This document shows, one piece after another, positions 49,805-64,000 of a stretch of DNA of 64,000 nt (position 1 is its first letter; each line of letters begins with the position of its first letter). Location of the stretch: NCBI GenBank assembly GCA_945957605.1, contig CAMFLR010000007.1, positions 62,001 through 126,000 on the forward strand, in the 5' to 3' direction. The DNA comes from an uncultured Isosphaeraceae bacterium (GTDB taxonomy: Bacteria; Planctomycetota; Planctomycetia; Isosphaerales; Isosphaeraceae). The position numbers and the translations under genes were made by a program. Under the pieces are notes generated by a model that worked only from the letters and a program-made list of their open reading frames with translations, did no database searches and was not told the origin of the DNA.

Positions 49805-50941
49805 ATGTCTGTCTTTGAATATAGCAAGTGGGATGGCTCGCAGCAGTTCTCGCCACAGTCGGCCGAGCGTGCGTTCGATCAGCTCACCGAATACATTATG
49901 CAGCACGGAGACCAGGTTCTCCGGAGCCTCGATGATCTCGACGACTCGCCCGAAATCCTGGAGATGATTCAAAAGGAAGGGCTGATCGAAAAGGACGAAG
50001 AAGGGAAGTATCGCGTCAGTCCCAAGGGTATTCGCCGCATCCAATCGTCCGCACTCACCGAGCTGTTCCAGACCTTTCAACGCGATGGTGTCGGCAAGCA
50101 CGACACTGCGCAGAAGGGCGAAGGAACGGTCCGGCTCGAAGATTCGCGTCCCTATGTCTACGGCGATTCGCTTGCGAATATGAACGTCCATGAGACGTTG
50201 AAGAACGCCCTGATTCGCCAGGGCGGCGGCACGCCGATTCGTTTGAAGTCGGAAGACTACGTCATTTACGAAACCGAATATCAAACGCGGTGCGCGACGA
50301 TCGTATTGATCGACATGAGCGGTTCGATGAGCCGTTACGGCAAATACGCCACGACGAAAAAGGTCGCGCTCGCGCTGCAAGCGATGGTTCGAGCGCAGTA
50401 CCCTCAAGATACGCTTCAACTTGTGGGCTTTTATTCGTATGCGAACGTGCTCACAGAACGTCAACTCATCGATTCCGCACCCAAGCCCGTGAGCATGTTC
50501 GATAGCCGGATCAACCTGCGCTTCGACCTCGATCATCTTCCTTCGCGCGTGCCGCAGCACTTCACGAATATCGACGCCGGACTTCGGCTCGCTCGCAATA
50601 TGCTCACAAGGCACGCGGCGGGGAACAAGCAGATCATCGTGATCACCGACGGCGAGCCGACGGCCCACATCGAAGGTCGCGAATTGGTGCTCATCTACCC
50701 GCCCGCCAAGAAAACTGCACAGCACACGCTCGCCGAAGCGCGGCGGTGTGCAGCCGCGGGAATTCGCGTATCGAGCTTCGCGCTCGTGGAAGATTACTTC
50801 TATCTCGGGCTCGTGAACTTCGTCGAGGAGATGGCACGCGTTACCCAGGGCGTCGCGGCGTATTGTGGCGCAGACGACCTGGGCAAATACGTGTTCGATA
50901 GCTTTATTGGCGGCCGGCGCACGCGGCGGACTGCGAACTGA
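49805..50941 (+). CDS. VWA-domain protein partnered with the MoxR ATPase
   Basis: A 378-residue protein with a helical N-terminal half and a C-terminal von Willebrand factor A domain. The MIDAS residues are DMSGSMS near 177-183, Thr in HFTNIDAGL and Asp in VITDGEPT, so metal binding should be intact. No signal peptide or membrane span. Encoded directly after the ATPase, so both are probably one complex. It converges with the cyclase gene, with only ten bases between stop codons. Confidence 0.88.
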   Translation: MSVFEYSKWDGSQQFSPQSAERAFDQLTEYIMQHGDQVLRSLDDLDDSPEILEMIQKEGLIEKDEEGKYRVSPKGIRRIQSSALTELFQTFQRDGVGKHDTAQKGEGTVRLEDSRPYVYGDSLANMNVHETLKNALIRQGGGTPIRLKSEDYVIYETEYQTRCATIVLIDMSGSMSRYGKYATTKKVALALQAMVRAQYPQDTLQLVGFYSYANVLTERQLIDSAPKPVSMFDSRINLRFDLDHLPSRVPQHFTNIDAGLRLARNMLTRHAAGNKQIIVITDGEPTAHIEGRELVLIYPPAKKTAQHTLAEARRCAAAGIRVSSFALVEDYFYLGLVNFVEEMARVTQGVAAYCGADDLGKYVFDSFIGGRRTRRTAN

Positions 50942-50951
50942 GAAAGCTCGC

Positions 50952-52790
50952 TCACTTCGTCGGCAGCGTCCAGACCCTGTCATACGTCGACGGATCGACT
51001 TTCGCATTCACAACGCGCGACAGTAAAATCAGCGACGGCCCATCGTTGGGAAACTCGAGTTGAAGAATGCCGAGCGTGCGTGCGGCTTGCGCCAGATTTT
51101 CGACTTCAAATGCTTCGAGTGCCTGCTCGTAACCCTTGCGCAACGGATCCCAGTTCGCCGTTCCACTGGCGGCAAGCTCGAATACTTCGATTTCCTTATC
51201 GATTCCCACAACGCGAATCCAGCCTAGCCGGCGCGTAGGGAGTTGACCCTGGAATTTCGTGTGCGACGCGCCCGATACCAGCACGCGCGTCTTGAATTGT
51301 TTTGTCGCATTTTGAAGACGTGAAGCCATGTTCACAGTATTGCCTAACGGGCCGTACTTGAACTTCAGCTTCGTGCCCGTGTTTCCCACGCGGGCCGTGC
51401 CGGTGTTGATGCCGATACCCAGGTCGAATCCCTTGTCAATCCGCGTCTTCCAGCGGTCATTGAGCTTGGGAATCACGTCGATCATGTCGATCGCTGCGCG
51501 ACAGGCAAGCAACGCCTGGTCGGGCTGGTCCTGAGGCGCCCCCCACATCGCCATCAACTCGTCGCCAATATAATCGACGAGTACGCCGTTATGGGCGAGC
51601 ACGCAGTCTGAAAGACCGCCCATCACGTCGTTAATCCAGTCCATTGTCGCTTGCGGGCCAAGCTGCTCGCTGATTCGACTGAAGCCGCGGATGTCGGCGA
51701 AAAGCAGGGTCACTTCCTGCTCGCGCGATTGGAGCATGTCGGGGCGTGCAATCAGCTCTTTTGCTAGCTCGGGCGTGAAAAACTGCTCGAAGAGGACCGA
51801 CGCCTCGATCGCCTTCTTTTCCTGCTTCATACGTTCGAGGCCGGCGGCAACGCCATCTGCCATCACCTCGACCAGCATCGCCTCGGCTTCGCTAATCGGA
51901 CCCGAAACGCGGGTGAAGCTGCTATCGATATTGCGATCGCCGTACAGCGCGCCGATCACCTCTCCCGCACGATTGAGAATCGGCGCGGCAACGACGGCCG
52001 ATACGCGCGCCAAGCTTTGCCCCTCGGTCCACCCACTCTCGGGGAGTTCGAAGAACGTAGCTCGCTCTTCAAGCACCCTGCGGAGAACCGAACGGCTTGG
52101 TGGCAGCACCTGATCGACGGTCATACGAGGCGAGGTTTTTGTGGCGTCGATTTTCCAGACGCGATCTTCGTAGCGAAGTACGCGACCGGTATCGAGTCCA
52201 ACGAGGTCGACGAGCGCCATCGCCGCGCGTTCGAGAAACTCAGACGTTCCCGCCGCGGCCTGAAGGACGCCCTGCATCGTTTTGAGCCAGCGGATGACCG
52301 CTTCAGGGCTAAGGCTCCCTTGCTGATTGATGTTCAGCGAGGGGAACTTGACCGATCCCGAGGGTGGACCGGACCCGGGCGGTAAGGTTGCCGAGCCGAG
52401 TTTTTGCAGCGTTTTTTCGGGCTCGGCGGCGAGCGGATGGATGCGGATCGTCTTGCGCCCGAGTGTGAAGACCCAGGGAAGATTGAATTCCTTCTTCTCG
52501 CCGGGCCCAACCTGCTGGCCGTCGTCCGAAATGCGGACGGGCACGGCTGGGCTGATGTTCTCGATGCGAACAGCGTAATCGCCGACAGGAATGAGCTTAA
52601 CGTGGTGGCGCGATACAGAGTCTTCGAGATGGCTGGCGATGATCAGGCGGGTATGGTCGTCCTTGGAAATCCGGTTGAACGGGCCGGGCTCGTTTCTGTC
52701 CTGGCGACCGAGTTCCACTACGCCCTGGAACTCTTCCTCAGCGACGAACCCGCCGGCGTCAAAGATTTTCAGACGTATACCCGCTGACAT
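50952..52790 (-). CDS. FHA-GAF-class III nucleotide cyclase
   Basis: A 612-residue signalling protein. The FHA domain (about 20-125) has the phosphothreonine pocket residues in DSVSRHHVKL. A GAF domain (about 165-320) with VVAAPILNRAGEVIGALYGD follows. The class III cyclase domain (about 345-525) has metal Asp residues in LLFADIRGFS and YIGDELMAMWGA and the transition-state pair in GNTVNMASRLQ. Converts ATP (or GTP) to the cyclic product. The combination could couple Ser/Thr kinase output (FHA reads phosphothreonine) and a small-molecule signal to cAMP. The substrate-specifying residues would need an alignment. Confidence 0.87.
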   Translation of the reverse strand: MSAGIRLKIFDAGGFVAEEEFQGVVELGRQDRNEPGPFNRISKDDHTRLIIASHLEDSVSRHHVKLIPVGDYAVRIENISPAVPVRISDDGQQVGPGEKKEFNLPWVFTLGRKTIRIHPLAAEPEKTLQKLGSATLPPGSGPPSGSVKFPSLNINQQGSLSPEAVIRWLKTMQGVLQAAAGTSEFLERAAMALVDLVGLDTGRVLRYEDRVWKIDATKTSPRMTVDQVLPPSRSVLRRVLEERATFFELPESGWTEGQSLARVSAVVAAPILNRAGEVIGALYGDRNIDSSFTRVSGPISEAEAMLVEVMADGVAAGLERMKQEKKAIEASVLFEQFFTPELAKELIARPDMLQSREQEVTLLFADIRGFSRISEQLGPQATMDWINDVMGGLSDCVLAHNGVLVDYIGDELMAMWGAPQDQPDQALLACRAAIDMIDVIPKLNDRWKTRIDKGFDLGIGINTGTARVGNTGTKLKFKYGPLGNTVNMASRLQNATKQFKTRVLVSGASHTKFQGQLPTRRLGWIRVVGIDKEIEVFELAASGTANWDPLRKGYEQALEAFEVENLAQAARTLGILQLEFPNDGPSLILLSRVVNAKVDPSTYDRVWTLPTK

Positions 52791-52944: not shown

Positions 52945-53364
52945 CTAGTCGTGCAGGCTGCGCAGGAAAGTCGTCACCGGTTTGGCGGTATCCTGCATGT
53001 ATGTTCCGCCGCCCATCTGGTAACGCCGGCCGTGCGTAAAGCCAAGGTTTACGTTGCTCAGGCCGCGGTAATCCCAGCCAAACGTTCCTTCGTCGGGGCA
53101 GGGGCCCGAACCGCCACGTCTGGCACCGCCGCCCACCATGTAACCATGATGGTGCGTTTCGTCTGTGAATACGGCGTGTTTGGAAATCCAGAACGGGTGG
53201 CCCGCGTCGCAAGCAGTACGCGGCAGCGGCGGCAATTCGCTATGGTGGTGATGTATGCACTCGAGGTGATGGGTATGGTTATGGTCGCCCGCTTTCGCGT
53301 TCGAGCCCATCGCCAGACCGATCACGGCGAGTCCGCTCAAGAGAAGCCAGTTTATAGAACGCAC
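52945..53364 (-). CDS. Small exported His-rich protein
   Basis: A 139-residue protein with a signal peptide (WLLLSGLAVIGLAMGSNAKA). A His/Cys-rich stretch DHNHTHHLECIHHHH at about 27-41 and further His pairs (ETHHHGYM) suggest metal or haem binding. The C-terminus is Gly-rich (GGGARRGGSG). I recognise no family. It starts with GTG 53364, preceded by GAAGGAG. It lies 45 bases after the stop of the GlcG-type gene and probably is co-transcribed with it. Confidence 0.7.
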   Translation of the reverse strand: MRSINWLLLSGLAVIGLAMGSNAKAGDHNHTHHLECIHHHHSELPPLPRTACDAGHPFWISKHAVFTDETHHHGYMVGGGARRGGSGPCPDEGTFGWDYRGLSNVNLGFTHGRRYQMGGGTYMQDTAKPVTTFLRSLHD

Positions 53365-53408
53365 GTATGACGCTCCTTCGCTGGGAATCCGAACGACGAT
53401 GTCGTCGA

Positions 53409-55670
53409 TCAGAGCAGCGGGTTACGGTTGAACTTCATGTAAGGCAGCCGCACGCCGCGAACCTTGAAGTGGTCGACCTGGATCGCGTTCGGAGCCCGGA
53501 AGCCGAGCGAGGCAGAGTACGTCACGACATCGTCCTGATCGACGCCGTCGCCCGACACGCCTAACCCGCCAACAAGCGTTGGCCTGCCGTTGATCGTCTT
53601 GTAAACACCCGAGGCACCGGGGAAGAAGACGATCCCGTTTTGATTCGCCGCAGCAGTCGGTGCGTGGAAGTTTGTCTGCGGGTTGAACGCGTCGTAACCG
53701 AGCACGCTTTGATAGGCGGAAATCGGTTTCGGTGCGCCGGTGACCGAATTGTCGTTGAGGATCGAGAACGGCCCTTGCGGGTAGACGTCGATGCCTTCAG
53801 GGAAGTGCGGCAGCGACAGATAGCGGAACGTGCGGTTCGTCAACGCCGTTCCCGGAATGAGGCCGGGCACCTGGTCCTGCGGCTGAAGCTGCTGGGCGTT
53901 GTTGTAGTAGGCGACGTTACGCGCCTTGGCCACGGCGACGTCGATCGAGAACATCGTCGCATCAGGCGTGCGATAGAGGCCGACGATGTTGCCGTCGAGG
54001 TCGGAGACGGCGAACACCATGCGGGCCGCGCGTCCCAGCGGGAGGCGAATCGCTGCACGAGTGCGGGCCGCTCGCAGAATTCCGTTGGCGACCATCTGGT
54101 AAACGTCGGCCGCGGTGATGCCCGTGCCGTCATGCGGCGTCACGAGCCAACCCGACGGAACGATCGTTCCGGTCTTGGTGTTGGCAGGCGCGCCTGTCGT
54201 GGGCGGCGTGGTCGGTGGCGTCGCTGCAGGGGCGCCAATCGCGGTATTTACGCCGTTCGCGACGGCCAGAGCCTTCGCCTGCTCGGCTGCGGTGGTCGGC
54301 TGGACGGTCGAGCTCGCTGTGAGCGTGAACGGCTGGGCCGACTGTCCCGCGGTGATGGGTAGGTCAATGCCGTTGACGGTTCCCTTGGTAAGCTGGAACC
54401 CAGGAGCGTCTTTGAACAGGTTGATCGGGCCCTGGTTACCGTTCGGGCCGAAGACGTCGAGCGTGATACCGACGAGGTCGATTCGGCCCTGGTAGAGCTG
54501 TGCACCGGGCTTCGTGAGGTTGATCGGCAGCAGGTCGAGGCCAGTCACTGGCGGCACGCCGGCGTAGGTGCCGATGTTCGTCGAGTGGCCGACGATGATC
54601 TTGGCACCTTGCGCACCACCCAGTGCGGCGAAGCTAACGAGCTCGGCTTCGAGCGACTTATCGACCTGCGTCGGGTCGTAGCCAACCTGGTTGAGCTTTG
54701 AGTTCTCAGCGCTGGCAAACCCGGTTGTGCCCGGGTAGAAGACGCCAATACCGCCGATCGTGACCGAGCCGGTCACCTGGCCCTTGGCGTTATAAGTATT
54801 GCGCTGGATGGGGATTCCACCCGGCAGCGTACCAATGCCACGAGGTTGGGCGTTGGGCTCAATGCCGGTGAGATATCCATAAGAGTCGGGCGGCGCAAGA
54901 CCGTCCCCGGCGGCAGTAATATTGGCTGGAATGTACTGGTCGGGCACGTTGAACCGGTTCGGGCGGACCTGACCTGTGCTGGGCACGACCGTCGTGTCAC
55001 GGTTCGTCAGCTCGATCTGGAAAAGGTCGACCTGAGGCGTGAAGGGGACGCCCGGAGGGAAGTGTCCCTTGATGCCGATCGGGGCGACAATACCCGGCCC
55101 CTTTGCAGTGGAATTCGGGTCGGTGATATTCGGATTCGAATTCACCTCTTGCGTGATCATGGTTGATTGGCTGATATCCTGAATCGTTCGCGACGTCAGC
55201 GGCGCTTCGTTGTTACCGAAGAAGGCGCCGGTGCGCGCTTCTGACATCGCGCCGTCGACGGCGAACGTCAGTGCGGCAGGATCATTCAGGATCGTCGGCG
55301 AGACGCCGGATTCGGCTCGAACGCCCAGCAACCGGCCGCCGCGGTCCATCACAACAATGATGGCCGACTGATCGGGGGTGGCAGCCGATGCGCGGTTGAG
55401 CAAATCCTCAACCTCGCTTGGCGTAAGCTGTTGCGCCGGTGTGGCGTCGCGATTGACGGCCGGCGGATTTACCGTCGCCTGATTGATGATATAGGCGGCC
55501 GTGCTGTTTTGCGGGTCGAGCGGATTCGGCGCAGGCACGGGCGCGGTTTGAATCGAGGAAAGCACCTGACGGGCTTCCAAGGAGTCATAAGAAGGAATTG
55601 CGTGACGGATTCGCCGGCGTTCTGGGCCGCCGAGGCTCGCCTTCATATTCGGCTTTCCATTCAGAGACAT
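53409..55670 (-). CDS. Exported protein with two GlcG/HbpS-type domains
   Basis: A 753-residue protein. Its N-terminus has the planctomycete surface motif in PSYDSLEARQVLSS. The first GlcG/HbpS (DUF336) domain (about 65-200) has the signature IIVVMDRGGRLLGVRAESG and AMSEARTGAFF. The second (about 505-620) has MVFAVSDLDGNIVGLYRTPD and VAVAKARNVAYY. Between them is a long connector with a TPPTTPPTTG-like stretch. HbpS in Streptomyces binds haem and relates to oxidative stress sensing; the role here is inferred only. ATG 55670 has GAGGAGGGAC upstream. It is divergent from the barrel gene. Confidence 0.82.
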   Translation of the reverse strand: MSLNGKPNMKASLGGPERRRIRHAIPSYDSLEARQVLSSIQTAPVPAPNPLDPQNSTAAYIINQATVNPPAVNRDATPAQQLTPSEVEDLLNRASAATPDQSAIIVVMDRGGRLLGVRAESGVSPTILNDPAALTFAVDGAMSEARTGAFFGNNEAPLTSRTIQDISQSTMITQEVNSNPNITDPNSTAKGPGIVAPIGIKGHFPPGVPFTPQVDLFQIELTNRDTTVVPSTGQVRPNRFNVPDQYIPANITAAGDGLAPPDSYGYLTGIEPNAQPRGIGTLPGGIPIQRNTYNAKGQVTGSVTIGGIGVFYPGTTGFASAENSKLNQVGYDPTQVDKSLEAELVSFAALGGAQGAKIIVGHSTNIGTYAGVPPVTGLDLLPINLTKPGAQLYQGRIDLVGITLDVFGPNGNQGPINLFKDAPGFQLTKGTVNGIDLPITAGQSAQPFTLTASSTVQPTTAAEQAKALAVANGVNTAIGAPAATPPTTPPTTGAPANTKTGTIVPSGWLVTPHDGTGITAADVYQMVANGILRAARTRAAIRLPLGRAARMVFAVSDLDGNIVGLYRTPDATMFSIDVAVAKARNVAYYNNAQQLQPQDQVPGLIPGTALTNRTFRYLSLPHFPEGIDVYPQGPFSILNDNSVTGAPKPISAYQSVLGYDAFNPQTNFHAPTAAANQNGIVFFPGASGVYKTINGRPTLVGGLGVSGDGVDQDDVVTYSASLGFRAPNAIQVDHFKVRGVRLPYMKFNRNPLL

Positions 55671-55909
55671 CCTTGTCCCTCCTCGATCACAGCCAGCCCG
55701 CGCAATCTGCGAACAGTTCGGTCCGTAGCCGTGTTATCGACCGCAAAAGGCGTCGTCATGAACCGCAAGTTCGATAAATCACGTTTTTTTGGCATAACCG
55801 TAATTACCCTTAAGGTCTGCCACGACGGTGACGATGTGTATGGCAAGTCGATGCGATGTGCGCTCGATTCCGAACCTGAGTTAAGGCAGTGTTTCGTGGA
55901 GTCAGAAGT

Positions 55910-57874
55910 ATGACTCGAACGTCGTATGCCGCGCCGGGCCACATCAGAGGGTGGCTCAGCCTCCCGCTGATCGTTGCCGTGCTGGGCGCCACCCCCCAGG
56001 CTCGAGCTCAGTCTCCGGCTCCCGCTTCACTGCCTGCTCCTGCGGCTGTCGCGAGTCCGTCTACGGACGCCGAAGTCAAACCGACTCAGGCGTTCGACTT
56101 GCCGCCGCTGCCCGAACCTTCGTATCCATTGCTGCGTTCGCCAGTGGAACCTGTCTTCCCGACGCCGATCGCCGACAACTTGCCGTCGGCGCTGTTCCGC
56201 ACGCCGCGGGACCTTCCCAACGGCTACACGGGGCCGTCAAGCGTCTTGCCTCGCGAGGCTCAAACGACGGCCGATTTCGTGCCGATCGAAGACCGCTGGC
56301 GCCTTGGTTTCCCTCTATGGGACCGCTACGGCACGAATCATCCCTTCATGGACGACTCGCCGTATGAGCCGGGATCGATTCTCAACCCCTACCGTCAGAA
56401 CGTGCTCAAGGGTGATTACCCCTTCATCGGTCAGCACGTGTTCTTTGAGCTGACAGCGAACCAGTTTACGTTCATGGAAGGGCGATCGGTTCCGGTTCAG
56501 ACCGGAGCCTTCGAAAGTACGGCCCGTCCGAACCAGTTCTCATTCTTTGGACACCCGAACCAGTTCTTCATCACGAACTTCTCGTCGCTCTCGTTCGAGA
56601 TCTTCCACGGTGAAGCGGGGTTCAAACCCAAAGACTGGATGATCAAGTTCACGCCTGTTTATAACGTGAACAACGTTGCTCTGTCCGAACTGGCGAACGT
56701 CAATCCGAACGTCTTGCAAGGGACGACTCGTAACCGCACGTTCTTCGCGGTGCAGGAACTGTTCGCTGAATACAAGATCGCCGACCTGAGCCCGAATTAC
56801 GACTTCGCGAGCATGCGAGTCGGTAACCAGTTCTTTGTCAGCGACTTCCGCGGCTTTATCTTCAACGATATCAACCGCGCTGTGCGGCTCTTCGGCACGC
56901 GGAACTCGAATCGCGATCAGTTCAACCTTGCCTTCTTCCGCCAGTGGGAAAAGGACACGAACAGCGGTTTGAACTCGTTCCATGATCGCAATCAAGACAT
57001 TGTGATTGCTAACTACTATCGCCAGGACTTCCTCTTTCCCGGCTACACGGTAACGGGTAGCGTCCACTACAACCACGACAGTCCGACGTTCAAGATCAAC
57101 AAGAACCGTTTCCTGGTTCGTCCCGACGCGTCGGGTATTTTCCAGAAGCACACGCTCGACGTCGTCTACCTCGGCTTCGCAGGCGACGGTCACATCGGCC
57201 GAATCAACGTCAACAACGCGTTCTACTGGGCGTTCGGTCACGACAGTTTGAATCCGATCGCCAACCGTCCGCAAGATATCAGCGCCCAGATGGCGGCCCT
57301 CGAACTATCGTACGACCGCGACTGGATGCGGTTCCGCACGTCGATTCTCTGGTTCTCCGGCGACCATAGCGTGAACAACGGCCACGCGACCGGCTTCGAC
57401 GGTATCTTGAACAACCAGAACTTCGCGGGCGGTATCTTCAGCTACGTCCAGCGCCAGTCGCTGCCGCTCTTCGGTGTGAACGTCATCAACAACAACTCGT
57501 TCATCCCGAACTTGCGTTCGAGCCAGATTCAGGCCCAATCGAACTTCGTGAACCCCGGTTTGCTGCTCTACAACATCGGTCAGGACATGGACCTGACGCC
57601 CAAGCTGAAGATGGTCAACAACATCAACTTTGAATGGTTCGACTCAACGGTTGTCTTGCAGCAGTACCTCTATCAGCCGAACATCCGCAAAGGAATCGGT
57701 ACCGATCTCTCGAGCGGTTTCGTTTACCGTCCCTTCCTGAGCGACAATGTGATCTGCGTCGCCGGTGTGACGACCCTTCTGCCCGGCCTGGGATTCCGCG
57801 ACCTTTACAGCAACTACGGAAACCGGGTCGACTTCCCGCTCGCCGGCTTCCTGTCGATGGCGTTCACGTTCTAA
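55910..57874 (+). CDS. Predicted outer-membrane beta-barrel protein
   Basis: A 654-residue exported protein. A signal sequence (LSLPLIVAVLGATPQARA) and a Pro/Ala-rich stretch precede a region of many short amphipathic strands with aromatic girdles: for example FFELTANQFTFMEG, FNLAFFRQWEKDT, YTVTGSVHYNHD and FPLAGFLSMAFTF at the very C-terminus. That last strand, ending in F-T-F, is a classic outer-membrane targeting signal. No family recognised. It lies between the tandem GlcG gene and the ten-haem cytochrome, so a porin-cytochrome partnership is possible, but the barrel call is from pattern, not homology. I chose ATG 55910. Confidence 0.68.
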   Translation: MTRTSYAAPGHIRGWLSLPLIVAVLGATPQARAQSPAPASLPAPAAVASPSTDAEVKPTQAFDLPPLPEPSYPLLRSPVEPVFPTPIADNLPSALFRTPRDLPNGYTGPSSVLPREAQTTADFVPIEDRWRLGFPLWDRYGTNHPFMDDSPYEPGSILNPYRQNVLKGDYPFIGQHVFFELTANQFTFMEGRSVPVQTGAFESTARPNQFSFFGHPNQFFITNFSSLSFEIFHGEAGFKPKDWMIKFTPVYNVNNVALSELANVNPNVLQGTTRNRTFFAVQELFAEYKIADLSPNYDFASMRVGNQFFVSDFRGFIFNDINRAVRLFGTRNSNRDQFNLAFFRQWEKDTNSGLNSFHDRNQDIVIANYYRQDFLFPGYTVTGSVHYNHDSPTFKINKNRFLVRPDASGIFQKHTLDVVYLGFAGDGHIGRINVNNAFYWAFGHDSLNPIANRPQDISAQMAALELSYDRDWMRFRTSILWFSGDHSVNNGHATGFDGILNNQNFAGGIFSYVQRQSLPLFGVNVINNNSFIPNLRSSQIQAQSNFVNPGLLLYNIGQDMDLTPKLKMVNNINFEWFDSTVVLQQYLYQPNIRKGIGTDLSSGFVYRPFLSDNVICVAGVTTLLPGLGFRDLYSNYGNRVDFPLAGFLSMAFTF

Positions 57875-57913
57875 AGCCGCAGGCCCATTCGATCCGAAGT
57901 GCGGCTGAGTGCC

Positions 57914-57938
57914 ATGCTTACGCGAATTGCGTAAGCAT
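57914..57938 (+). terminator. Perfect hairpin after the barrel gene
   Basis: ATGCTTACGC (57914-57923), loop GAATT, GCGTAAGCAT (57929-57938). Forty bases after the barrel gene's stop, so a likely transcript end. No strong T-run follows. Confidence 0.5.
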
Positions 57939-57997
57939 GCGGTCGTTTATGGAACTCACAATTTCGAGCTTTTCTTTTGGCCGAAGTGCTTCAGATC

Positions 57998-58098
57998 GGG
58001 TGCCAGTGGCTGTGCCAGTGCTCTTCGGTTCATTTCGCATAGAATCGCACTGGCAGAGCATGCAGTGCGCATCTCCAATACTTCGCTTTGCCAGTGTT
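57998..58098. repeat. Double-palindrome dispersed repeat, copy 2
   Basis: GGGTGCCAGTGGCTGTGCCAGTGCTCTT starts it (57998 onwards), and a second stem with CACTGGC/GCCAGTG parts follows to 58098. Same word order as the copies at 2361 and 62237, but with a longer interior. Non-coding. Confidence 0.65.
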
Positions 58099-58249
58099 AT
58101 CGAATCCATTGTTGCGAATCTCGCGCCAAAGCGGGGTTGACCAATTCTGGTCAGTCTGTCTAATACCCGCGCTTCTCTCCATAGATTGAGTGGAATGATT
58201 CCGCCGCCCGCAGTTGGGCGCCACCGCTGACACGGAGGTCGACGGACCG

Positions 58250-61200
58250 ATGCGCCGCCTCATTATCCACGCAGCTACAGCCAGTTTGGTGCTGGGTCTC
58301 GTCCAGGCGGCCTACGGGCAAGCCGGCTCGAAGTACGTCGCCTATGAGAAGCCGGTCGCGGTGCGCAAGCCGGTCGAGCTCGTACATCCGATCGATAAGG
58401 ATGTAAAAAAGGCTCAGTTCGACCTCGCTGGCCAGGATCAGGCCGATGCGCTTGCGAAAAGCGTCGGCTGCGTGAATTGCCACCAGAACAGCCACGATCC
58501 CCACGCGAAAGACACGGTCAAGCTGGGCTGCACCGATTGCCACGGTGGAAATGCGGCGACGAATATCAAGGAACTCGCCCACGTTTTGCCTCGCTATCCC
58601 GAGATCTGGCGGACATCCGCCAATCCGGTCCGGTCTTACACGCTGCTCAACCACGAGTCGCCCGAATTCAACCGATTCGTGAATCCCGGCGACCTCCGCA
58701 TTGCGCACATTAGCTGCGGTACGAGCGGGTGCCATCCCAGCGAGGTGCTTAACAATCGCAAGAGCATGATGACGCACGGAGCCATGCTCTGGGGCGCTGC
58801 TCTTTACAACAACGGCGGCTTTCCGCTCAAACGCGCGCGGTTCGGCGAAAGTTACAGCATGAACGGTGTGCCGCAGCGGATTCAAACCGTGCCGCCGCCC
58901 ACCGATTACGAAATCCAGGTCAAGGGCGTGCTGCCCTATCTCGACCCGCTTCCCAAGTTCGCGATGACTCAGCCGGGCAACATCCTCCGCATCTTCGAAC
59001 GCGGCGGTAAGGGCCGTCCCGAAGTCGGCATTCCAGACATCTTCGAAGATCCGGGCCGCCCCGGCGTTCGTCTCTCGAATCGCGGCCTCGGTACACTCAA
59101 CCGTACCGACCCCGTTTTCATCGGCTTGCAGAAAACCCGTCTCTTCGACCCCACGCTCAACTTCCTCGGCACGAACGACCATCCTGGCGACTATCGCTCA
59201 GCGGGTTGCACGGCGTGCCACGTCGTGTATGCCAACGACCGCTCGCCGGTTCACTCGGGACCGTTCGCCAAGTTCGGCAACAGGGGGACAAGCTTCTCCG
59301 ACGACCCGATGATCCCCAAGAATGAGTCGGGCCACCCGATCGAACATAAGTTCGTGAACGCTCCGCCGAGCAGCCAGTGCATCATTTGCCACGTGCACCC
59401 GGGCACGACGGTCATGAATTCCTACCTCGGCTTCATGTGGTGGGATAACGAGACCGACGGCGAGTTCATGTATCCCAAGAAGGAAAAGCACCCGAGCGCC
59501 GAAGAAGTCGTGCTCGCGTCGATGCGAAATCCTGAGGAAGCAGCGGTTCGTGGAAACTGGGGCGACCCGAAATTCCTCGACAACCTGACCGACCTCAACC
59601 CCTACCTCAAACACACCCAGTTCGCCGACTTCCACGGCCACGGCTGGGTGTTCAAATCGGTCTTCAAGAAAGACCGCAAAGGCAATCTCCTCGACTCCGA
59701 AGGCGACATCGTCCCGCAGCCTGACACCGCCGCGCTCATGGCGAGCATGGTGCCGCCATCCGCCAAGGAACGTGTCGAAGGCAAGAGCGACCGTCACGGG
59801 GTGCCCGCACACCTGATGGACATCCACCTCGAGAAGGGGATGCACTGCGTCGACTGCCACTTCATCGTGAGTGCGCACGGCAATGGCAAGCTCTACGGCG
59901 AAGTGCGTAACGCCATCGAAATCCAGTGCATCGACTGCCACGGCACCGTCAAGAATCGCACGAACCTTCGATCGAGCGGCCCGGCATCGCCGGAAGGCGG
60001 TATCAATCTCGCATCGCTCCGCACGCCTTCGGGCAAGCCGCGATTCGAGCGCCGCGGGAACGTCGTCATTCAGAACTCGATGGTCGAGCCGAACCAGTCG
60101 TGGCGCATCGTGCAGACCACCGACACGCTCGATAGATCGAGCATGGATTACAACCAAAAGTCCCACATGGCCAAGACCGTTCGTCACGAGAACGGCCAGA
60201 TGGTCTGGGGCGATCTGCCCGCCGACGTCAACCAGTGCGCTCACGCCGACGACAACATGAGCTGCATTTCGTGCCACTCGTCGTGGAATCCGTCCTGCTA
60301 CGGCTGTCACCTGCCGCAGAAGGCGAATTACAAGATGCCCGAGTTGCACAACAACGGCGATGTGTCGCGTAACTACACGGCGTATAACTTCCAGACGTTG
60401 CGTGACGATGTGTTCATGCTCGCCCGCGACGGCGACGTGACCCGCAATCGCATCAATCCCGCGCGATCGAGCTGTGCGATCCACGTCGGTTCGTACAACG
60501 CGAACCGCGAGTCGATTTACGTCCAGCAGCAAACGATTTCGGCGGAAGGTTTCTCCGGTATCGCGTTCAGCACAAACGTCCCGCACACGGTGCGCGGCGG
60601 ACCGAGGCTTGACCGCAATACCGGCCGAGCGTTGAATCCCGCGAACTACCTGTCGGGCCGAAACGAGACCAAGCAGTGCACCGACTGCCACGTCTCGAAG
60701 GAAAACGACAACAACGCGATCATGGCCCAGCTCATGATGCAGGGCACGAACTACACGAACTTCATTGGCCGTTACTGCTGGATTGGTGCCGACCACGACG
60801 GCCTCGTCGCCGCGATCGTCACCGAACGCGACGAACCGCAAACCGTCATCGGTAGTTCGCTGCACAAGACGGTCTATCCCGAGCGGTACGCAAAGCACGT
60901 CGAGCATGGCCGCGAGCTTGAAGGATACGAGCACCCGGGTAAGGACATCTCCAAGACTCTTACTCGCAGCCCGCTGACTTCGACGATCACCAGCTTGCAG
61001 CTCCGCGGTGAATACCTCTACGCCGCGTGCGGAGAGCAGGGGATGCGCGTGTTCGACGTCGCGTTCATCGACGACAAGGCGTTCTCGGAACGCATCACGA
61101 CAGCCCCGGTCTCACCGCTTGGCCAGAAGTTCTTCGTGAAGAGCAAGTTCGCGACCGCCGTCGCAGCGCCGACGACGATCGCCCCCGACCCGACGCGTGC

Positions 61201-62161
61201 CAAGAGCCACCGTCCCGAGAACCACGAAGTCAATCGCGTGCATGCTCTCTATGCATACATCTACTTCGTCGACAAGTTTGAAGGTCTGATTGCTGTCGGC
61301 GCGGGGACGCTGCTCGACGGTAATCCGCTCAACAACTTCCTCGAGCGGGCTGTCACTTACAACCCGAACAACATCCTCTGCGGCGCAAACAACATCACGA
61401 TCGTCGGCACGTATGCTTACATCACGTGCAACGCCGGTCTCGTGGTTGTTTCGCTCGACGATCCGACCAAGCCGGTCGTCACCCAGGTGATTGGTCACGA
61501 GGTCCTGCACGGAGCGAAGGCCTTCCAGGCTCAGTTCCGCTACGGTTTCGCGACCGACGAACATGGCCTGACGGTTTTCGACATCACCGACCTGGCCCAC
61601 CCGACCGTCATCACCAAGCTGCCGATCGAACACGCTCACAACCTCTACCTCGCGCGGACGTATGCCTACGTGGCCGCTGGACCGCAGGGGCTGGTGATCG
61701 TCGACATCGAAAACCCCGAGCAGCCGAAGATCGATCAGATCTTCAACGCCCACGGCGAGATCAACGACGCGCACGACGTGAAGCTTGGCATCACGAACGT
61801 CTCGCAGTTCGCGTACATCGCCGACGGTAAGAACGGTCTCCGCGTCGTTCAGCTTACGTCGCCAGATACGCCCGGCAACGACGGGTTCAGCCCGCGGCCG
61901 ACTCCGGAACTTGTCGCCACGTTCAAGATTCCGCTCGGCGGCGAGGCTCTGGCGATCAGCGAGGGTGTCGACCGCGACCGCGCGATCGACGAGTCGGGCA
62001 ATCAACTTGCGGTGTTTGGACGCGTGGGGGCTCACCCACTCTCGCTCGACAACCAGCGCAAGATGTACCTGAACGGCGGCCAGCTCTATCGCGTGTCGGA
62101 TGACCCGCAAGACCCGGTGTTCCCCGGACCTCGGCCGCTCAACTTGCCGAAAGATCGGTAA
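58250..62161 (+). CDS. Ten-haem cytochrome c fused to LVIVD repeats
   Basis: An approximately 1303-residue exported protein. After a signal peptide (ATASLVLGLVQAAYGQA), ten covalent haem sites are seen: nine CxxCH (CVNCH, CTDCH, CTACH, CIICH, CVDCH, CIDCH, CISCH, CYGCH and CTDCH, at about residues 74, 93, 319, 377, 533, 559, 671, 683 and 810) and one CxxxxCH (CGTSGCH, about 155). The last 400 residues (from about 890) are LVIVD-type propeller repeats such as AYVAAGPQGLVIVDIENPEQP and DEHGLTVFDITDLAHP. It probably carries electrons across or outside the outer membrane; donor and acceptor are unknown. I chose ATG 58250 with GGAGG upstream, because the upstream TTG at 58214 adds non-signal residues. 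Confidence 0.88.
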   Translation: MRRLIIHAATASLVLGLVQAAYGQAGSKYVAYEKPVAVRKPVELVHPIDKDVKKAQFDLAGQDQADALAKSVGCVNCHQNSHDPHAKDTVKLGCTDCHGGNAATNIKELAHVLPRYPEIWRTSANPVRSYTLLNHESPEFNRFVNPGDLRIAHISCGTSGCHPSEVLNNRKSMMTHGAMLWGAALYNNGGFPLKRARFGESYSMNGVPQRIQTVPPPTDYEIQVKGVLPYLDPLPKFAMTQPGNILRIFERGGKGRPEVGIPDIFEDPGRPGVRLSNRGLGTLNRTDPVFIGLQKTRLFDPTLNFLGTNDHPGDYRSAGCTACHVVYANDRSPVHSGPFAKFGNRGTSFSDDPMIPKNESGHPIEHKFVNAPPSSQCIICHVHPGTTVMNSYLGFMWWDNETDGEFMYPKKEKHPSAEEVVLASMRNPEEAAVRGNWGDPKFLDNLTDLNPYLKHTQFADFHGHGWVFKSVFKKDRKGNLLDSEGDIVPQPDTAALMASMVPPSAKERVEGKSDRHGVPAHLMDIHLEKGMHCVDCHFIVSAHGNGKLYGEVRNAIEIQCIDCHGTVKNRTNLRSSGPASPEGGINLASLRTPSGKPRFERRGNVVIQNSMVEPNQSWRIVQTTDTLDRSSMDYNQKSHMAKTVRHENGQMVWGDLPADVNQCAHADDNMSCISCHSSWNPSCYGCHLPQKANYKMPELHNNGDVSRNYTAYNFQTLRDDVFMLARDGDVTRNRINPARSSCAIHVGSYNANRESIYVQQQTISAEGFSGIAFSTNVPHTVRGGPRLDRNTGRALNPANYLSGRNETKQCTDCHVSKENDNNAIMAQLMMQGTNYTNFIGRYCWIGADHDGLVAAIVTERDEPQTVIGSSLHKTVYPERYAKHVEHGRELEGYEHPGKDISKTLTRSPLTSTITSLQLRGEYLYAACGEQGMRVFDVAFIDDKAFSERITTAPVSPLGQKFFVKSKFATAVAAPTTIAPDPTRAKSHRPENHEVNRVHALYAYIYFVDKFEGLIAVGAGTLLDGNPLNNFLERAVTYNPNNILCGANNITIVGTYAYITCNAGLVVVSLDDPTKPVVTQVIGHEVLHGAKAFQAQFRYGFATDEHGLTVFDITDLAHPTVITKLPIEHAHNLYLARTYAYVAAGPQGLVIVDIENPEQPKIDQIFNAHGEINDAHDVKLGITNVSQFAYIADGKNGLRVVQLTSPDTPGNDGFSPRPTPELVATFKIPLGGEALAISEGVDRDRAIDESGNQLAVFGRVGAHPLSLDNQRKMYLNGGQLYRVSDDPQDPVFPGPRPLNLPKDR

Positions 62162-62181
62162 TCGTCTCGCAGTAAAAAACA

Positions 62182-62225
62182 AAACGGCCCGCCAGACTCG
62201 AACTGAGTTTGGCGGGCCGTTTTTG
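62182..62225. terminator. Bidirectional terminator between convergent cytochrome genes
   Basis: AAACGGCCCGCCA (62182-62194) pairs with TGGCGGGCCGTTT (62210-62222), with T-rich tract following on the plus strand and A-rich tract (read as T on the minus strand) before it. It serves both converging cytochrome genes. Confidence 0.9.
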
Positions 62226-62236
62226 TTTTTGCGGTT

Positions 62237-62300
62237 GGGTGCCACTGGCTAAGCCAGTGAGTCTTTGCATTTGGATGCACTGGCATAGCCAGTGGCACCC
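62237..62300. repeat. Double-palindrome dispersed repeat, copy 3 (best preserved)
   Basis: The outer arms GGGTGCCACTGGCT (62237-62250) and AGCCAGTGGCACCC (62287-62300) are perfect inverted repeats. Each half is itself a hairpin: CACTGGCT-A-AGCCAGTG (62243-62259) and CACTGGC-ATA-GCCAGTG. So it is two hairpins in inverted orientation, like a bacterial interspersed mosaic element. Confidence 0.85.
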
Positions 62301-62323
62301 GAGCTTTCTAAAGAGAAGAAACT

Positions 62324-63871
62324 CTAATAAGAGAGCAGGGCACCAAGTGCCTTGAGGTCTTCGCGAAGCGCCGCCGGCTTGTAATTGCCGAGATTATTGA
62401 GCGCGGCTTCGAGTTGATCCTCAATCTTCTTGTCACGACCCGCCGGAAGATTGAGTCGCAGGCCGGTAGCGATGCGTTCGAGAATCGGCTTGATCTCGGC
62501 CTCGTTTTTGGGATCGGGGCCAAGGTCCTGAATAAACGACCAGATCGTCCAGCCAACATGCCGCGCGGCGTCGTAATCAAGATCGTTGTCGGCCGCCTCG
62601 GCGACAAGTCGCTTGAGCATGGCCACAACCACCTTACGATCATACTTCGCCGCATCGAGCCGTTTCGTCAGATCGTCGGACCAGGCTGCGTACTTGCTCG
62701 CCGCTTCGCCCACGTCTTCAGCGCGACCGAAGGGACGGGCACGAATTGCGTCGTTCAACGTCTTCTCAGCACCCTTCAATTCCTCGAGCAATGGCTTGGC
62801 AGCGGGATCGTCGTTGCCGAGTTTCTCGACTCCAAGCAACGCGATGAACAGCGGCCAGCGAGCAACGGGAGGGCGTCCCGGAGCACTCGTGTAACCGCGC
62901 TCTTGCCGCCAACTCGGCCGTTCGAGCTCGTGGTGGCAGCTCGCGCAGTCGAAACGAGCATAGTCGGGCCAGACGAGCCCAGGGGCTGAATTCGCGGCCG
63001 ATTCGACGATCTTCGATTCTTCGGCCAGCAAGTGGAGCGACGTCTTCAAAGCGACCGCCGCGCTCACGATTGCGAGCTTGGAGCGTTCGAGATCGTCACC
63101 CGGCGTCAGCTTGTCTTTGAACTCCGGCTTTTCGCTCCTGAGCCACCAGTGGCGCGGAAGCTGGTCGGAAAACGCGGCAACTTCGATGCTCGGCAGCGGC
63201 GGATGGCCGACGGAGTACATCGCGTGCGTGACGACTTTCCCCTCAGCGCTGTTGCCAATATGGCATGAGAGGCACTTCGCCGCCTGGCGGGCGGGGTTGC
63301 CCATGTCGTTCATGCCGAACTCGGCCTTCTGCGCTGCGTTCTTCACACGCCAGCTCGTGTCGAGGTGGGGCGTCAGCCATTGTTCAGCGGCACCGTGGCA
63401 GTTTTCGCAGCTCACGCCGTCAGACGGCTTGAACGCATCGCCTTGCGAAAGCTTCTCGGTCGCGCTCGCCGAATGGCAGCCGAGGCAGCCCGCTTCGGGC
63501 CGCGTTACGTCCAGACCGAGCCGCTTCGCCATCGCCGCACCGCGCTCGCCCTTGAGATTATCAAAGGCAAGCGAATGCTTATCTTTTTCTTTCCAGTAAT
63601 TGAACTCGTTCAGCTTGATGTGCCCGACGGCCTTATTGAAGATCGTCTTCTCGGGCGTGGTTGCGTGGCAATTCGAGCAGAGGTTCGAGCCCAGAAACTT
63701 CGCGTTCGGCACAGCGGCCGCGGCTGGTACCTGGCCTGTGAGCGCACCGGCAATCTGAAGCGGCGAAAGCGCTGCGGGTTCGGGCGGCGCAGCATGAGCA
63801 GGAGCCGCAACCAGCGCGGCTCCTGTCAGGGCAAGCGAAAGAATTCGCATCCGGGTCGATCGTCCGGTCAT
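62324..63871 (-). CDS. Five-haem cytochrome c (cytochrome c-554-like)
   Basis: A 515-residue exported multihaem protein with five CxxCH sites: CSNCH (65-69), CLGCH, CENCH, CLSCH and CASCH. The signal peptide is ILSLALTGAALVAAPAHA. The stretches KFLGSNLCSNCH and DGVSCENCHGAAEQWL are typical of the cytochrome c-554 domain found in multihaem oxidoreductase relatives. The C-terminal 250 residues are helical and haem-free. ATG 63871 has GAGGAA upstream and starts 14 bases after the stop of another minus-strand gene, so the two are co-transcribed. Likely electron carrier; partners unknown. Confidence 0.88.
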   Translation of the reverse strand: MTGRSTRMRILSLALTGAALVAAPAHAAPPEPAALSPLQIAGALTGQVPAAAAVPNAKFLGSNLCSNCHATTPEKTIFNKAVGHIKLNEFNYWKEKDKHSLAFDNLKGERGAAMAKRLGLDVTRPEAGCLGCHSASATEKLSQGDAFKPSDGVSCENCHGAAEQWLTPHLDTSWRVKNAAQKAEFGMNDMGNPARQAAKCLSCHIGNSAEGKVVTHAMYSVGHPPLPSIEVAAFSDQLPRHWWLRSEKPEFKDKLTPGDDLERSKLAIVSAAVALKTSLHLLAEESKIVESAANSAPGLVWPDYARFDCASCHHELERPSWRQERGYTSAPGRPPVARWPLFIALLGVEKLGNDDPAAKPLLEELKGAEKTLNDAIRARPFGRAEDVGEAASKYAAWSDDLTKRLDAAKYDRKVVVAMLKRLVAEAADNDLDYDAARHVGWTIWSFIQDLGPDPKNEAEIKPILERIATGLRLNLPAGRDKKIEDQLEAALNNLGNYKPAALREDLKALGALLSY

Positions 63872-63885
63872 GTCACGTTCCTCGT

Positions 63886-64000
63886 TCAATGGGGGATGAT
63901 CTCGCGGATGGAACGGAGTTCGCTAGAGACCTTATCGGGAGCATAGTTCGCCGGGCTATCGAGCAACCGGCCAATTTCAGGCTGGTCGATGGGAACGTTC
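63886..64000 (-). CDS. 3' end of an unknown gene (cut by the window edge)
   Basis: Minus-strand reading frame open from the window edge to a TGA at 63886-63888. The last residues read NVPIDQPEIGRLLDSPANYA followed by PDKVSSELRSIREIIPH. It is too short for a family call. It directly precedes the five-haem cytochrome gene with a 14-base gap, so it belongs to the same operon and may be functionally related. Confidence 0.6.
   Translation of the reverse strand, partial: NVPIDQPEIGRLLDSPANYAPDKVSSELRSIREIIPH

Follow-up and report, generated by a model that had tools for sequence, protein, structure and literature searches.

What function unites a predicted outer-membrane barrel, several multihaem cytochromes and a GlcG/HbpS-type protein encoded side by side at one end of a 64,000-nucleotide stretch of planctomycete DNA? 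This whole stretch (the window) corresponds to C7:62001-126000 of the 8.8-Mb genome of an uncultured Isosphaeraceae bacterium, and a first-pass annotation had proposed that the genes near its right-hand end act together as an outer-membrane electron conduit. All the genes it listed are present (Table 1). Throughout the phylum, the barrel gene, the ten-haem cytochrome gene and their partners are passed on together, and this set includes inner-membrane and cytoplasmic electron-input modules that lie outside the window, beyond the view of that annotation. The cluster is probably the outer-membrane end of a dedicated chain joining cytoplasmic reduced nicotinamide adenine dinucleotide (NADH) to the cell surface.

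Phyletic profiles were compiled for 99 relatives and for 392 genomes of the phylum. Among the relatives, the barrel is present in 36, one copy each, the ten-haem cytochrome in 37 (full-family matches) and GlcG in 37; all three occur together in 32, with 5-6 discordances per pair, several of which fall in incomplete genomes. Of the 99, 34 have both the barrel and the ten-haem gene and 60 have neither, leaving 5 discordant genomes (2-3 on each side), and GlcG and the barrel share 34 genomes with 5 discordant. The c554-like family, found in 37 of the 99, tracks the window's ten-haem cytochrome and the second, inner-membrane one described below with Jaccard indices of 0.95-0.97, and values among the core families span 0.87-0.97. 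Shuffling presence within families reached the observed sharing in 0 of 2000 trials, and in three genera (g6, g9 and g18) some species carry the whole set and others none of it. Across the phylum sample, the barrel is found in 39 genomes and the ten-haem cytochrome in 38; every one of these 38 has a barrel, and only one weak barrel match stands without a ten-haem gene. The first-pass annotation held that a joint system would be unlikely if the genes never co-occurred; instead, the genes for the barrel, the ten-haem cytochrome, GlcG and the c554-like proteins are found together almost without exception. Tree distances of barrel, ten-haem and GlcG also agree (Spearman 0.78-0.86); this is compatible with joint inheritance, but the species tree would lead one to expect it too, and it is not used here as evidence.

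Gene order follows the same pattern. In most loci the genes for GlcG, the barrel and the ten-haem cytochrome lie next to one another, and several classes show them adjacent or in one operon; the divergent GlcG/barrel arrangement of the window recurs in many relatives. In some distant lineages the three can form one operon: at L137 all three lie on the same strand with head-to-tail overlaps, and at L140 the GlcG and barrel genes overlap. Linkage alone is insufficient to account for the shared profile, because several family f3 genomes encode the ten-haem protein at a separate locus and nonetheless have GlcG and the barrel. Outer and inner modules share one cluster at L066, L067 and L129.

The ten-haem protein, which has C-terminal LVIVD repeats, carries nine CXXCH motifs and one CX4CH motif, all invariant in 45 homologues, which excludes a chance haem pattern. 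At least 13 further histidines are near-invariant in the same homologues, predicted to be enough for bis-histidine ligation of all ten haems. The LVIVD match (PF08309) scores 62.5 bits against a cut-off of 20.2, bearing out the fusion described earlier; a PDB profile search with this protein gave nothing significant. A lipobox is present in 10 of 18 homologues from other classes and, by the same heuristic, in 0 of 29 class relatives, which supports a membrane-attached position in the other-class lineages. The gene cut by the window end runs on to window-equivalent position 65397 and encodes a second c554-like cytochrome with four CXXCH motifs (Cytochrome_C554 E=1.4e-10; open reading frame at L011 15887-17398), a companion to the five-haem protein already recognized. 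Further 12- to 15-haem cytochromes are encoded near the cluster in other classes (gene 4 of L134, gene 8 of L138 and gene 0 of L140).

The barrel protein is likely an outer-membrane β-barrel. A barrel region of ~550 amino acids (aa) follows a Pro-rich N-terminus, and the last residue is F, Y or W, within a β-signal-like C-terminus, in 44/44 relatives, in keeping with the C-terminal outer-membrane strand claimed earlier. A soluble fold, which would have told against a joint system, finds no favour in these sequence features. The closest named relative, from an Isosphaeraceae metagenome bin, shares 82% identity. A distant homologue from another class (L126) matches Alginate_exp, an AlgE-like outer-membrane barrel family, at 34.9 bits (Pfam cut-off 25.2), and weakly matches DESULF_POR1 porins (E=3e-4); the window barrel matches neither, nor any other model in Pfam or in NCBIfam at E<=1. 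In contrast to alginate export proteins, the barrel is tied to cytochromes rather than to polysaccharide export genes. Two barrel homologues, L137:7050-8936 (AGC) and L140:9979-11934 (TGC), have lipobox-like N-termini, unusual for a β-barrel. Six loci (L062, L074, L080, L082, L083 and L097) encode a member of a second barrel family close to a ten-haem gene or a GlcG gene, and the L062 copy matches Legionella_OMP.

HbpS-like proteins bind haem. Pfam detects a single HbpS-like domain in the window's GlcG/HbpS protein (PF03928, residues 528-716, 49.8 bits against a cut-off of 25), corresponding to the C-terminal copy only, but the N-terminal half aligns with the C-terminal half by hhalign (probability 98.9%, E=4e-17), as expected of the tandem domains noted previously, and a distant relative contains two HbpS-like stretches. 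The role of GlcG, the least certain part of the proposal, would be that of a haem- or ligand-binding accessory. N-termini of this family are LEPR-XLL-like in the window's class (LEARQVLS, LEERSLLA), and lipoboxes occur in two other-class homologues; these may represent different export routes for one GlcG protein. The small predicted exported protein, with its N-terminal hydrophobic stretch, possesses a conserved C-terminal domain (GYYVGGG...EGTWGWDY...GRxYQGGTG in an alignment of 11 relatives), belongs to a family present in 15-17 examined neighbourhoods and has no Pfam or NCBIfam match. Its His-rich stretch is unconserved among the 11 relatives and was rejected as a functional feature.

Neighbourhoods in other genomes revealed the inner modules: a fused NuoE-NuoF protein, a HoxU-like iron-sulfur (FeS) protein with cyclic-nucleotide-binding (cNMP) domains, and a membrane cytochrome b accompanied by the second ten-haem cytochrome. 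The second ten-haem cytochrome and the FeS/cNMP protein track the phyletic profile of the outer set in the 99 relatives. In a strict-threshold phylum sample, 11/11 genomes with the second ten-haem cytochrome also carry the barrel; three candidates were scored per genome in this search and absences were not counted. The cytochrome b has four to five helices with four invariant and two near-invariant histidines, and the inner-membrane ten-haem protein has ten invariant CXXCH motifs and one N-terminal transmembrane helix. In the window's own genome the set is scattered, the inner modules occupying two sites on a different contig (C4): cytochrome b and ten-haem cytochrome at ~281.8-284.5 kb, NuoEF and FeS/cNMP protein at ~327.8-332 kb. 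The latter protein (L143:9596-12010, own genome, C4) has an uncommon domain make-up, in which a HoxU-like FeS part is joined to HydN-like ferredoxin clusters and CRP-like cyclic-nucleotide domains.

We infer every step of electron flow, and the label conduit itself, from domains and co-inheritance. A HoxEF/NuoEF-like diaphorase and the HoxU-like FeS/cNMP protein would take electrons from NADH, and the di-haem-like cytochrome b would move them across the inner membrane to the ten-haem cytochrome anchored by its single N-terminal helix. The c554-like five-haem proteins would shuttle electrons across the periplasm to the ten-haem LVIVD protein, which would carry them to or through the outer membrane, where the barrel and, in many relatives, a lipid anchor would keep this protein in place. 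As surface or periplasmic accessories, GlcG and the small protein with the conserved domain may bind haem, metal or a different small ligand, and the nearby nucleotide cyclase may gate the chain via the cNMP domains. Electrons would most likely be passed outward, to an external acceptor or for redox balancing, outward flow being the simpler reading because a diaphorase belongs to the set. In several relatives, homologues of the cyclase are encoded next to the barrel gene or the ten-haem gene. The cyclase was rejected as an obligate part, since its profile is shared only about half (Jaccard 0.46-0.49 against the core); it is a looser partner and a possible source of cyclic nucleotide for the FeS/cNMP protein.

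Several observations weigh against this NADH-to-surface chain. The strand periodicity of the barrel (alternating hydrophobicity) is 2.5 per 100 aa compared with 1.2-1.6 in other families, but at a z of only 1.0 this is no more than suggestive and is not relied on; PDB profile searches gave no barrel relative; and an AlphaFold model of the barrel built from only three sequences has a predicted local distance difference test score (pLDDT) of 25. No small MtrA-like plug gene that would take haems across the barrel is obvious, and the FeS/cNMP protein is undetected in 6 genomes that have the other four parts. GlcG is not known to take part in electron transfer. The window's GlcG/HbpS copy begins with the LEPR-XLL-like LEARQVLS and shows no classical signal peptide; its gene and tandem domains stand as annotated, and its export is for this reason counted as presumed. 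One cultivated carrier (locus L063) appears to be Isosphaera pallida, which is recorded as obligately aerobic (PMC3072084); that such an organism would turn to an external acceptor is not obvious.

The system resembles MtrCAB/PioAB in pairing an outer-membrane barrel gene with that of a large multihaem cytochrome of the surface type (a lipoprotein in many relatives) and in having an inner-membrane multihaem input. It differs in the added LVIVD propeller, GlcG and NADH-diaphorase module, and in having no small periplasmic ten-haem plug gene. The MtrB/PioB family gave no match to the window barrel (NCBIfam, E<=1) or to two distant barrels (E<=0.001). A CXXC motif is characteristic of MtrB, whereas 0/42 barrels here have one: it is absent from the last 600 aa of all 42, and the window copy contains a single Cys. 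With the MtrA/DmsE model TIGR03508 (cut-off 192) the ten-haem LVIVD protein reaches 10.9 bits and its inner-membrane counterpart 30.1, and the OmcA/MtrC model TIGR03507 has no match to the ten-haem protein at E<=1. By these family-model and CXXC tests the system is not Mtr-type, and appears instead analogous to a porin-cytochrome conduit. In the broad sense of a barrel genetically coupled to a multihaem cytochrome, that description applies to 38/38 ten-haem genomes, with the barrel nature taken from sequence features. A Cyc2-type fused cytochrome-porin is not indicated, as no N-terminal haem motif was found in the barrel, with its single Cys in the window copy, nor any haem motif in the barrel family.

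Among curated models, ExtM of the Geobacter ext operons (NF040943; 66.5 bits, E=1.4e-18) is the one most strongly matched by the ten-haem protein. The cut-off of that model is 800, its 599 positions compare with 1303 aa here, and the matches leave the LVIVD part uncovered; the two proteins seem only remotely related. On the input side, the unlinked proteins resemble HoxEFU/NuoEFG in comprising a fused NuoE-NuoF and a HoxU-like protein, but the latter adds cyclic-nucleotide-binding domains and extra ferredoxin clusters, and no hydrogenase subunit was recognized in the clusters examined. Within the same superphylum, verrucomicrobial clusters likewise place a porin gene (at least 20 transmembrane motifs) beside multihaem genes, including an eight-haem periplasmic cytochrome, and were proposed to serve extracellular electron transfer; the passages of that paper describing them name no LVIVD, GlcG or diaphorase, which sets them apart by description (PMC5615132). 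No other described system from the Planctomycetes-Verrucomicrobia-Chlamydiae (PVC) superphylum was found in the open-licence literature, where the present gene combination has no description either. Whether it amounts to a phylum-wide conduit of separate origin, composed of an alginate-export-like barrel, an LVIVD ten-haem lipoprotein and a tandem haem- or ligand-binding GlcG partner and fed directly from NADH by a diaphorase with a cyclic-nucleotide-gated FeS subunit, is a more tentative matter: we consider it possible while leaning slightly against it.

Electrons could also flow inward, the same conduit oxidizing an external donor (reduced iron, manganese or humics) while the diaphorase reduces NAD+. 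The parts are direction-neutral, and HoxEF/HoxU-like modules, whose families are matched here, are generally known to be reversible in bidirectional hydrogenases. Reduction of NAD+ from high-potential donors needs an energy input, however, and no coupling site is seen; that the likely carrier Isosphaera pallida is an aerobe would fit, but it is described as a chemoheterotroph (PMC3072084). We consider inward flow unlikely. The cluster might alternatively encode a terminal reductase for one soluble substrate (an oxyanion, nitric oxide or similar), with the barrel admitting the substrate at the outer membrane. ExtM, the top curated-model match noted above, belongs to a selenite/tellurite reduction operon, and c554-type proteins can in general handle nitric oxide. 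Since that ExtM score falls far under its cut-off and the near-invariant histidines of the ten-haem protein leave no clear five-coordinate catalytic haem, we find a dedicated reductase quite unlikely.

Shared ecology or inheritance could have brought together the genes of at least two systems that act separately, such as GlcG with the barrel on one side and the cytochrome chain on the other. Such a division would suit the f3 genomes with an unlinked ten-haem gene, and genome G079, which has barrel and GlcG without the ten-haem gene, although the barrel gene of that genome sits at the end of a contig. Against it, the sharing is not reached by any within-family shuffle, 38 phylum genomes from many families keep barrel and ten-haem genes together, and the two genes overlap in L137; we find separate systems decidedly improbable. 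Least credible, and in our view very improbable, is haem or iron acquisition and cytochrome supply, in which the barrel would import or export, GlcG would bind or degrade haem and the cytochromes would be clients. The known haem binding of HbpS-like proteins, whose domain is matched here, and the barrel's want of a haem motif of its own would fit, but no match to a TonB-dependent receptor or to a plug domain was obtained, and the co-tracking inner-membrane electron-input modules have no place in uptake.

Table 1. Features of the cluster, listed left to right in window coordinates
Feature	Position	Strand	Basis or remark
Class III nucleotidyl cyclase, GAF-like/guanylate-cyclase-type	50952-52790	-	Guanylate_cyc E=1.5e-22 (Pfam)
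Small predicted exported protein, His-rich N-terminus, 139 aa	52945-53364	-	N-terminal hydrophobic stretch
Tandem GlcG/HbpS-like protein, LEPR-XLL-like N-terminus, 753 aa	53409-55670	-	HbpS-like E=4.3e-13
Divergent GlcG-barrel intergenic region	55671-55888	.	Likely shared regulatory region
Predicted outer-membrane β-barrel	55910-57874	+	C-terminal aromatic; porin-family matches of distant homologues
Ten-haem c-type cytochrome, C-terminal LVIVD β-propeller repeats, signal peptide, 1303 aa	58250-62161	+	LVIVD E=2e-17
Two strong hairpins between convergent ten-haem and five-haem genes	62180-62301	.	Folding energy
Five-haem c554-like cytochrome, predicted periplasmic carrier	62324-63889	-	Cytochrome_C554 E=1.6e-11
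Second c554-like cytochrome, cut by window end	63886-64000	-	Full gene C7:125886-127397, 503 aa

The hairpin region between the convergent cytochrome genes folds with -101.6 kcal/mol (z=-13) and comprises a hairpin resembling a terminator and, after it, a palindromic repeat. The palindromic part accounts for most of 63 genome matches and resembles a repetitive extragenic palindrome. On the other side of the cluster, a VWA-domain protein gene (49805-50941) with a MoxR-like AAA gene just upstream forms a pair that seems unrelated to the conduit.

Planctomycetes are abundant and mostly regarded as heterotrophs. If the proposed chain is real, it would add a respiratory or redox-balancing ability to the group, with the outer pair in about a tenth of the sampled genomes (38/392), and would be one that Mtr-type model searches missed here. 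The apparent Isosphaera pallida genome carries the core set, which makes the proposal testable in cultivated strains. The system would then represent an independent solution for the passage of electrons across the outer membrane.

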